A stretch of 64,000 nt of DNA, from NCBI RefSeq assembly GCF_030296755.1, contig NZ_AP027741.1, forward strand, positions 992,001-1,056,000, given 5' to 3'. How positions within the stretch are numbered: the first letter of the stretch is position 1; every line of letters begins with the position of its first letter. Shown here piece after piece: positions 24,133 through 60,442 of the stretch. Position numbers and translations under genes: made by a program. Under the pieces are notes generated by a model. It worked only from the letters and a program-made list of their open reading frames with translations. It did not search any database and had not been told where the DNA came from. Source of the DNA: Methylophaga marina. Lineage in GTDB: Bacteria > Pseudomonadota > Gammaproteobacteria > Nitrosococcales > Methylophagaceae.

Positions 24133-24164
24133 CAATTTCGTTTTATTTATTATTATCTGTTTGG

Positions 24165-24170
24165 TACTAT
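24165..24170 (+). promoter_or_regulatory. Extended -10 promoter before the riboswitch
   Basis: TGGTACTAT is an extended -10 element (TG, one base, TACTAT). The -35 region (TTTATT at 24142-24147) is poor, as is common with extended -10 promoters. The transcript would start near 24177, a few bases before the predicted riboswitch. Confidence 0.45.
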
Positions 24171-24181
24171 TTTTTCTGGAA

Positions 24182-24272
24182 ACACTTTAACCAAAGCCAA
24201 ACTCGGTGTGAACCAAGGACGGAAAGTTACAGACCTTATGATACTAAGGTGGCTGTACTGCAATAATATCTA
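24182..24272 (+). ncRNA. Probable cyclic-di-GMP-I riboswitch (GEMM)
   Basis: The leader contains the ordered hallmarks of the GEMM-I motif. AAAGCCAAAC (24193-24202) is followed by a short helix capped by a GUGA GNRA tetraloop (GGT-GTGA-ACC, 24205-24213). Then come GGACGGAAAG (24217-24226) and a long P3 helix (TACAG ACCTTA with TAAGGT GG CTGTA, 24228-24257). The Shine-Dalgarno (AAGGAAAG) of the next gene lies about 15 bases downstream, so control of translation initiation is plausible. The ligand is inferred from the motif; I could not score it against the covariance model. Confidence 0.7.
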
Positions 24273-24284
24273 AGGAAAGAACAC

Positions 24285-24995
24285 ATGAAAAAAATAGTTT
24301 TTATCGCACTGGCTTTATTTACTGGTTTAACTAACGCTGCTATAGCTGCAACAAGCTTATCAACTAATGGTTCATGGCAAACAGCTAATGGCGACCTAAG
24401 TTCATTGCTCGGCCAGTCTGCACCAGCTACATGGTCTTACGATACAGACCTAGCATCAGCGACCCTCTACTCATCATATACTCTTCCAAGCACAGGCACA
24501 GTGAGTACATACGTATCATCAAATTACGTTCTCTCAGGTACAGCTGCCCCCACTTTGTTTGATGGCAGCCAGTTTGCTCTCAGTATATTAGATAATACTA
24601 TTGCAAACCTTGATGCATTCAATACAGATATCGTTACATCAATGGTGAATAAAGGTCTCAATCCCGATATCACAGGTGATGCGATTCTATTTACAACTAG
24701 CACTCTTTTTCCGGTGTCTGAATTCACAGAAAGTTTTTCTCTGTCTGGCCTGATGATGTTTGATAAAGACTTTTTCACTGGCCCTATATCAACATTACCT
24801 TCTGCTGATATTCTGCTTGATAATGCATTATTCATTTATGCATCACTTTCACATGAAATTAACTTTGAAGAAACTGGCTTTGCTAGTTATATCCAAACGC
24901 CATCAGCAGTGCCTGTACCTGCTGCCTTATGGATGTTTGCTCCAGCGTTGTTAGGTTTTCTTGGTTTGCGTCGCAAGGTGAATACTCAGGCTTAA
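24285..24995 (+). CDS. Exported VPLPA-CTERM sorting-signal protein
   Basis: The 236-residue protein starts with a signal peptide (about residues 1-22, MKKIVFIALALFTGLTNA). It ends with VPVPAALWMFAPALLGFLG followed by LRRK, the tripartite VPLPA-CTERM signal: motif, hydrophobic helix, basic end. Such tails are recognised by exosortases, which process proteins linked to exopolysaccharide or surface matrix. The middle (about 23-205) is rich in Ser, Thr, Leu and Asp, has no cysteine, and was not recognised as any known domain. No exosortase gene is in the window. A riboswitch precedes it and a terminator follows, so it is a single-gene unit. Confidence 0.88.
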   Translation: MKKIVFIALALFTGLTNAAIAATSLSTNGSWQTANGDLSSLLGQSAPATWSYDTDLASATLYSSYTLPSTGTVSTYVSSNYVLSGTAAPTLFDGSQFALSILDNTIANLDAFNTDIVTSMVNKGLNPDITGDAILFTTSTLFPVSEFTESFSLSGLMMFDKDFFTGPISTLPSADILLDNALFIYASLSHEINFEETGFASYIQTPSAVPVPAALWMFAPALLGFLGLRRKVNTQA

Positions 24996-25015: not shown

Positions 25016-25051
25016 AAAAAAGCCGTAGTGATAAATCTTTACGGCTTTTTT
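25016..25051. terminator. Bidirectional terminator
   Basis: AAAAAAGCCGTA (25016-25027) pairs with TACGGCTTTTTT (25040-25051). The stem has T runs on both strands, so it can end the VPLPA-CTERM gene from the left and fhs from the right. Confidence 0.88.
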
Positions 25052-58905: not shown

Positions 58906-60387
58906 TTATTCAGTATCGCGCTGAATACCGTATTTACGCATTTTCTCTACTAGCGTTGTTCTACGCATTTTCAGTTTATTCGCTGCATGAGCAACCACGC
59001 CCTCAGCATCATCTATGGCTTGTTTTATCAATAGATATTCAAGATTGGCAAGATGTTCTTTCAGATCAATACCCTCTTCTGGCAACACCATATCTTCTGG
59101 GCCAGAAGATGAATTAACTGGGTCAGAGGATGTCTCTGGCACGGGTTTAATCTCTGGCGATGTCTCAGGTAGATTCCTTGAAGCTTCTTGCTGTGGGCCA
59201 GCGGCAATGATGCTGGTAATTTCTTCAGGTAACTCATCACCTTCTAGCTGATACTTTTCTGGAAGGTCATCAAAATCGACCGTGCCGTATGGATAGAGAA
59301 TCACTAATCGTTCGACCACATTCGCTAATTCACGTACATTTCCAGGCCATGGGTAACGGCATAATGAGGTAATCGCAGCAGGGGTGAGTCGAATAGTGCC
59401 TCTGTTTTCATGTTCAATACGTTTAATCAATTCATGAATCAGCAGCGGAATATCTTCTGGTCTGTCTCTTAATGCTGGCATTTCAATAGGAAAGACATTC
59501 AGTCGGTAAAATAAATCTTCACGGAACCGACCATCAGCAATATGCTCTTCGAGGTTACGATGTGTGGCGGCAATCACGCGAACATTGGCTGTTTGTGTTT
59601 TATTACTACCTACTTTTTCATAGGTTCTTTCTTGGAGTACACGTAACAGTTTGACCTGCATTGGCAGTGGCATATCGCCTATTTCATCCAGAAATAATGT
59701 GCCACCTTCAGCCATTTCAAAACGTCCTTTTCTGGCCGTTATCGCCCCGGTAAAAGCACCTTTTTCGTGACCAAATAACTCACTTTCCAGTAACTCTCCT
59801 GGAATGGCCCCACAATTGACTGGCACAAAGGGTTTATCTCTTCTGGATGAAAAGTGGTGTAAGTTACGAGCAACGACTTCTTTACCAGTTCCTGATTCGC
59901 CCAGAATGAGCACATTGGCTTCTGAGTCAGAGACCTGATCAATCATCCGCTGCACATTCTTAATGAGCCGACTATTGCCTACCAGTGACCGGAATAAGTT
60001 ATTGGGTGTGCTGGCTTCAGCCGTCATCCCCCGATAGATGGTCGCCTGCTGTAACGCATTGCTGAGTTGAGGATACTTAATGGGGTAACGAATAGAACCA
60101 ATGGTGCCCGGAAAGTCTAATGCTTCGCCAGAGGAAGATTCAAGAACAAAGACGGGAACCCGTGAGTCGTGATTAACCAGTTCTCGAAGTAACTGCTTAG
60201 TTTGATTTTGTCCGCCGCAGTCACCCACAATGGCCATCACCACATCATCAAGGTTTTCAACATGCTCAAACCAAAGGTCTGATTCTGAAATCACCACCGG
60301 CTGACAATTTATAAACTCAATGAGTGTGCTTAACATCTCGCATCGGTCAATATCACTTTCAACGACCAATACATTATTTACACTCAT
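58906..60387 (-). CDS. flrA: Sigma-54-dependent master flagellar regulator FlrA/FleQ
   Basis: The start chosen is ATG at 60387 ([16 protein letters not shown]), with GGAG five bases upstream; the literal frame opens two codons earlier at GTG. The 493-residue product has an N-terminal FleQ-type receiver-like domain (about 1-115), an AAA+ domain with Walker A GESGTGKE and loop GAFTGA, and a C-terminal helix-turn-helix ([20 protein letters not shown]). FleQ-type proteins bind c-di-GMP, which would connect motility with the riboswitch-controlled surface protein elsewhere in the window; that link is inferred. Confidence 0.95.
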
Positions 60388-60442
60388 ACTCACTCCATCT
60401 CTTCACTTGGTTTTGAACTGGCGATAAGCCTTGAATAACTGG

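Follow-up and report, generated by a model that had tools for sequence, protein, structure and literature searches.

The window (the whole stretch of 64,000 nucleotides of the Methylophaga marina contig NZ_AP027741.1 that was analysed) includes a leader RNA followed by a gene for a secreted protein. The features of this locus are listed below; ligand-contact residues are in Vc2 numbering, taken from the accessible parts of PMC3764141, PMC4744006 and PMC11218506.

24162..24170, + strand: extended -10-like promoter element TGGTACTAT, by direct reading
24186..24265, + strand: c-di-GMP-I riboswitch aptamer (RF01051), by covariance-model score and covariation in 47 genus aptamers
24196, + strand: G20 equivalent (ligand contact), G in 96/96 genus aptamers
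24202..24217, + strand: P2 hairpin with a GUGA (GNRA) loop at 24208-24211, by model alignment and direct reading
24223, + strand: A47 equivalent, A in 96/96 genus aptamers
24230..24255, + strand: P3 hairpin, by model alignment
24261, + strand: C92 equivalent, C in 95/96 genus aptamers
24272..24279, + strand: ribosome binding site AAGGAAAG, 5 nt upstream of the ATG, by direct reading
24285..24995, + strand: gene for a 236-aa secreted protein, starting 19 nt after the aptamer
24285..24350, + strand: signal peptide, residues 1-22, by direct reading
24903..24977, + strand: C-terminal sorting-type tail SAVPVPAALWMFAPALLGFLGLRRK, residues 207-231, common to the other 13 riboswitch genes of the genome
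25016..25051, + strand: terminator-like inverted repeat (25016-25027 / 25040-25051) ending in T, by direct reading

The original prediction read a c-di-GMP riboswitch in this leader and proposed to score it with Infernal. In cmscan, RF01051 matches 24186-24265 (+) over the full model (positions 1-87) with 53.7 bits, against a gathering threshold of 35 (E 1.1e-7); the only other RNA matches at gathering threshold in the window are four tRNAs. With the pocket bases G20, A47 and C92 also present, the prediction is borne out and the element is, judged by its sequence, a real c-di-GMP-I riboswitch. The paired positions are conserved in relatives: across 47 genus aptamers, 95.4% of cells are paired and 13 of 18 pairs have changed on both sides, and neither value is reached by any of 500 shuffles. 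The window leader is not more stable than its shuffles (z -0.65), and a P1 helix finds no support, with flank pairing of 9.3 against 9.0 for swapped flanks and 24 of 52 leaders above. A platform based on P1 was set aside for lack of support in two tests, one of them in a register at odds with Vc2 numbering.

The 236-aa product is, as predicted, a secreted protein with a signal peptide and an exosortase-type tail, both of which can be read directly. It is a VPVPAALWMFAPALLGFLGLRRK tail, tripartite (VPxPA motif, hydrophobic stretch, basic end) as in the 13 other riboswitch genes. It is of the VPLPA/PEP-CTERM kind, but the specific label VPLPA-CTERM does not hold at curated cut-offs, since TIGR03370 gives 10.5 (cut-off 25.35) and the PEP-CTERM models TIGR02595 (NCBIfam) and PF07589 (Pfam) give 9.3 (16) and 13.4 (20.7). 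No curated family reaches its cut-off in the window protein. A profile of 14 tails from the M. marina genome (13 from genes with a riboswitch, one from a gene lacking it) scores the window tail at 73.7 bits, the window tail itself being part of the profile. The structure predicted by AlphaFold2 is beta-rich with a mean pLDDT of 56.4, and its fold has no PDB match with E <= 0.001.

The predicted flanking signals stand in part. The extended -10 element is present at 24162-24170, but the promoter scan of the region adds little because it returns 5 sites where 3.3 (sd 1.4) are expected, hardly above chance. Likewise, the terminator can be read as an inverted repeat with a 12-bp stem, a 12-nt loop and a terminal T, but is unflagged by a terminator tool with a loop limit of 8. 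A FleQ-domain regulator, also expected in the window, is encoded at 58912-60402 on the - strand (PF06490, 62.6 bits).

The unit as a whole recurs in Methylophaga sp. SAT92 (PAJP01000022.1), where the protein is 99% identical and the aptamer scores equally. Three sister-genus genomes hold four homologues of the window gene (45-52% identity), each behind an RF01051 aptamer, which makes it probable that leader and gene were already paired before the genus arose.

The window pair was first taken for a single self-contained unit, a reading that is ruled out by a search of the genome and genus for the same leader and tail genes: the genome has 14 such units and the genus 96, that of the window included. 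All 14 RF01051 matches in the M. marina genome (3.107 Mb) are above cut-off, and all 14 precede a gene with a signal peptide and one common sorting-type tail, including a gene for 1113 aa whose tail lies about 3.3 kb downstream. Three aptamer-gene cassettes stand within 2.2 kb (C1:2278336-2280481), directly upstream of an exopolysaccharide-like locus (gene names by reading). TIGR03370 has 13 matches in this genome, three of them above cut-off.

In the genus, RF01051 has 96 matches in 15 of 24 genomes, and the leaders of all 96 were read. Among the matches listed, a same-strand tail follows 94 of the 96 aptamers within 4 kb, a different tail each time; the other two (G005:C18 and G001:C245) run off their contigs, and their ORFs start like a signal peptide. 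The tail profile matches in at least 150 places of the genus, and 56 tails among the matches listed have no RF01051 match upstream. A scan of 37 of these 56 loci for hidden aptamers found only the known aptamer in L103. The nine genomes without an aptamer comprise five without a tail and four with one weak tail match, among the matches listed. A genus aptamer model built from 47 of the 96 sequences recovered all 96 and brought in three more, decayed copies that precede tail genes; two of these were read directly and the third was placed by coordinates. The c-di-GMP-II search matched in 0 of the 24 genomes, and its control likewise matched nowhere, so that this zero is no proof of absence.

Three further elements (L199, G001:C220:2269; L200, G021:C3:926286; L201, G004:C23:15473) resemble one another, score 24-35 bits with the genus aptamer model and have TTGCCAAACATCA and GAGCTGGATTACACA in common. 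No close tail ORF lies behind them, and they have no Rfam match at E 0.05.

Beyond the genus, a survey of 63 genomes of the order examined 62 of at least 68 matches. In the sister genera of the family, with 79 matches in all, 51 of the 57 aptamers examined have a tail gene; in the other family of the order, 0 of 5 do. The six sister-genus aptamers without a tail gene are of several kinds. At L168 the aptamer precedes a 53-aa ORF (by reading), and at L147 and L156 aptamers of the common GGC/GC kind stand before large secreted proteins, one complete at 868 aa without a tail and the other running off its contig. At L143, L154 and L164, well-scoring aptamers are followed at once by an intrinsic terminator, beyond which lies only a convergent gene; they may be orphan aptamers, relics or small RNAs. 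In the class, 65 of 370 genomes have RF01051 matches, the M. marina genome and one sister-genus genome included. A profile trained on Methylophaga tails found a tail at 0 of 30 loci elsewhere in the class, all outside the family, in a flank of 1.5 kb from which some ORFs run off. As the proportions are 94/96 in the genus, 51/57 in sister genera and 0/30 elsewhere, the c-di-GMP-I riboswitch class in this family appears to serve surface proteins almost wholly.

We put at about 0.75 the probability that the window element is a canonical-pocket c-di-GMP-I riboswitch for an exosortase-tail protein and a member of a lineage-wide regulon. The aptamer would bind c-di-GMP, and the secreted proteins are presumably put in the envelope or matrix by an exosortase. 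Because aptamer and ATG are only 14-36 nt apart in the 14 M. marina leaders, control would act at the level of translation, with c-di-GMP raising expression. In one class of leaders (class 1), the aptamer edge holding C92 would pair with codons 3-6 when ligand is absent and so enclose both the ribosome binding site and the ATG in a loop; with ligand, C92 would be withdrawn and the start region would open. The platform of the window gene would differ because the complementarity between edge and codons is missing there. Its candidate platform is the 5' arm of P3 against the ribosome binding site: CCUUA at 24234-24238 has an alternative partner in UAAGG at 24271-24275, a pairing that appears in the longer fold only and is absent with other choices of ends.

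Class 1 comprises the 40 of 96 leaders that precede ORFs beginning MKKAMLF or alike; six are in the M. marina genome, and the window gene is outside the class. In these leaders the 3' edge of the aptamer, 5'-GCAUUGCUU-3', which holds C92, is complementary to AAGCGAUGC, which runs from the last part of codon 3 into the first part of codon 6. Codon usage was tabulated for 38 leaders with 37 distinct ORF starts, two leaders with an upstream ATG being left out. Ala4 is GCG in 32/32, whereas its share among Ala codons is 0.17 across long ORFs from ten M. marina loci; at Ala10, 19 and 20 of the same proteins all four codons are used. Leu6 is CTN in 37/37 and CTA in 34, against a share of 0.08 for CTA among Leu codons, and Leu11, 12 and 22 have mixed codons. 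By folding, the predicted probability that edge and ORF start pair is at least 0.9 for 31 of the 39 distinct leaders of class 1 and for 7 of the 51 outside it. The other 56 leaders have no such run of complementarity (4.9 own, 5.1 swapped).

Sister-genus leaders of the class 1 type, which were not used to find the helix, keep its nine pairs in 10 of 12 cases and break it in 2. Four of these leaders have A for G87, all with GTA, and the sole leader with A82 is the sole one with TTA at Leu6; four of the eight leaders with GTA retain G87 as a wobble. Over 52 leaders, positions 82-85 and 87 form standard pairs in 52/52, position 86 in 51, 88 in 50, 89 in 46 and 90 in 47. Three of the nine pairs have both-sided changes on 12 distinct rows, which 3 of 500 shuffles reach, in a control that keeps relatedness in; the same test has 91.7% of cells paired, compared with at most 52.8% in slid registers. 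The covariation comes from few events, as the six both-sided cells among the 52 leaders lie in four sister-genus genomes (five cells) and in the genus (one). Pair types are no more numerous than in shuffles (373 of 500). Codon bias is therefore weighed above covariation, since the control keeps relatedness and half of the GTA leaders hold the wobble. It is fairly probable that the N-terminal codons of class 1, and in single cases the amino acids, are constrained by the RNA, and that the c-di-GMP-I riboswitch class as a whole has been captured in this family by one sorting system.

The direction of switching was modelled as the cost of opening the start region, keeping the aptamer fixed and leaving G20 and C92 free of pairs, with shuffled codons as control. 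In class 1 this cost drops on average by 1.2 kcal/mol on binding, compared with 0.0 for shuffled codons; 19 of 24 leaders lie above their own control and two lie below -1. The gain over shuffled codons points to a probable translational ON switch in class 1. In class 2 there is no gain over shuffles (0.76 against 0.94 in the control, 13 of 33 leaders above), and for the window leader the computed change is -1.6 kcal/mol, opposite to the control mean of +0.7. The idea that class 2 leaders, the window's among them, generally switch ON by opening the start site was accordingly rejected. Folding energies of such short leaders weigh lightly in either direction, and the window leader may be an ON switch by analogy with class 1 and with biofilm data published by others.

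An authentic aptamer might instead act as an OFF switch, c-di-GMP hiding the ribosome binding site so that the proteins are made at low c-di-GMP. The window's own value of -1.6 would agree with this, its start region being computed as easier to open without ligand. There is also a precedent in Bc1 of Bacillus, where c-di-GMP binding traps the ribosome binding site and AUG, according to the accessible parts of PMC11218506. In the available text of PMC12530212, one of the four published PEP-CTERM-type riboswitches is higher in planktonic cells, which favours OFF, and three are higher in biofilm, which speaks against it, with transcript levels as the only measure; of 11 riboswitches 10 are higher in biofilm, the exception being Ribo5 (PEP-CTERM). 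In class 1 the complementarity ties up the C92 edge and so predicts ON. The OFF alternative is considered unlikely.

Still less probable is that one cassette of leader, signal peptide and tail has been duplicated many times and that the aptamers are relics of little regulatory effect. Pairs of M. marina class 1 cassettes are indeed alike at their ends (mean identity over 15 pairs: aptamer 82%, tail 79%, mature protein 37%), and three decayed copies exist. Duplication would account for spread but not for upkeep: of the 96 aptamers, 96, 96 and 95 retain the respective pocket bases even though M. marina class 2 aptamers average 66% alike, P2 and P3 covary, and the class 1 codons are constrained. 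Class 1 paralogues, for example at L015 10337-12482, look as if middles had been swapped between fixed ends.

The genus aptamers form a subtype. In all 96 genus aptamers C21 and C22 are paired to G46 and G45, so that the first pair, C21-G46, is swapped relative to the G-C of the RF01051 consensus. Because G20, A47 and C92 are kept and P2 and P3 covary, the pocket is judged to be of the c-di-GMP type. The A of 'GAC' (A43, model position 34) is U in 31 of 96; a reading of these as an 'A47U variant' was dropped, as the U position is A43 in the numbering given in the accessible part of PMC3764141.

An A at position 20 would suggest cGAMP as ligand. It is very improbable that these aptamers form a variant for a different ligand, either cGAMP or that of RF03167 (c-di-GMP-I-GGC): although RF03167 is the clan match kept for 13 of 14 M. 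marina aptamers, the window included, and three of the 14 pass its cut-off of 59 (63.7, 61.8 and 60.8), the window passes RF01051 yet scores 49.2 for RF03167, the RF03167 consensus has G at 47 where all 96 have A, and position 20 is G in 96/96, so that both candidates are contradicted by the pocket bases.

Part of this picture is already known. The accessible text of PMC12530212 describes seven c-di-GMP riboswitches in M. nitratireducenticrescens, of which Ribo4-7 precede VPLPA/PEP-CTERM genes, so that four riboswitch-gene pairs are on record; the neighbours of the other three are given as thrombospondin, PqqA and TonB. The available parts of PMC5918138 describe, in the same species, three similar genes that stand side by side and have a c-di-GMP riboswitch apiece. 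On a scale of mxaI = 100, the first reaches 2,011 (riboswitch) and 936 (gene) in strain GP59, and the other two range from 2.9 to 30 across the two strains; one pair of leader and gene thus described ranks with the most abundant transcripts. Ribo1-Ribo7 thus resemble the present set in genus, tandem cassettes and VPLPA/PEP-CTERM neighbours, and in the parts available these reports cover four of seven pairs and give no general rule, platform or other species. Genome G006 is taken as M. nitratireducenticrescens by near-matching riboswitch coordinates. There, sorting-tail ORFs follow the aptamers at C1:82816 and 844783, for which the published neighbours are given as 'thrombospondin' and, probably, 'PqqA'. 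G006 yielded no match for the last of the seven published c-di-GMP riboswitches.

Vc1 (upstream of gbpA) and Vc2 of Vibrio cholerae have the same aptamer fold, GNRA loop and G20/A47/C92. According to the accessible part of PMC4744006, the gene behind Vc1 encodes a secreted protein, and translational fusions to Vc1 are expressed with c-di-GMP. In the source as available, Vc1 lies more than 100 nt from its ATG, compared with 14-36 nt in the 14 M. marina leaders. Further differences from Vc1 and Vc2 are the C21-G46 pair (96/96), the lack of a supported P1 and the class 1 codon pairing. In Bc1 of Bacillus thuringiensis, the c-di-GMP-I leader pairs just after the AUG in a SHAPE model (PMC11218506, in the parts available). 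The pairing there is between a terminator U-tract and an A-string, with two terminators, whereas here it is between the ligand-contact edge and codons 3-6. PEP-CTERM / VPLPA-CTERM sorting (PF07589, TIGR03370, PF09721) shares the signal peptide, VPxPA, hydrophobic stretch, RRK end and exosortase, and the tail described here differs from the curated ones in being lineage-specific and mostly below cut-off.

Literature searches found no work joining a c-di-GMP riboswitch with an exosortase, or a GEMM riboswitch with PEP-CTERM. The accessible parts of PMC7266159, PMC9481103 and PMC11526790 hold no further case of the riboswitch/tail-gene pairing. Neither the family-wide rule nor the codon platform was found in the searched literature, which consists mostly of papers outside subscription and was available in part. 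Taken by itself, the riboswitch in the window adds one more member to a known class; the wider finding is the regulon, which together with the class 1 platform makes it a variant worth testing.

If the main reading is true, c-di-GMP would act through RNA, one gene at a time, to determine which proteins make up the sorted surface proteome, and c-di-GMP-I RNAs would switch an interchangeable set of exosortase-type surface proteins, probably in marine methylotrophs. c-di-GMP is best known for acting through proteins on exopolysaccharide and adhesin systems, and the functions of exosortase substrates are, to our knowledge, largely unknown. The regulon would be a direct, testable link between the two, in which one signal could dress the cell surface via 14 riboswitch-tail genes. 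The 14 related switches in one cell also form a natural series for threshold studies, and synonymous changes alone are enough to give a clear prediction for the class 1 platform.

The exosortase search suggested with the original prediction gives PF09721 at 191.3 bits in the M. marina genome (C1:2305227-2305841; gene C1:2305084-2305841), with the gene start in another frame, about 25 kb from the three tandem cassettes. PF09721 matches in 14 of the 15 riboswitch-bearing genus genomes. The M. marina exosortase gene (L138) is broken into two frames close to an A7 run, and the frame is open in the same-species genome G004 and in seven other loci read; the remaining loci either gave no match to the marker motif or have a contig that begins too late. 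The frame break may be a sequencing error, a strain mutation or phase variation. In G003 there are two overlapping exosortase matches, one with internal stops. GGDEF has 52 matches in the M. marina genome of 3.1 Mb, 51 of them above cut-off and a few being pieces of one gene, which is a dense c-di-GMP network for the genome size.
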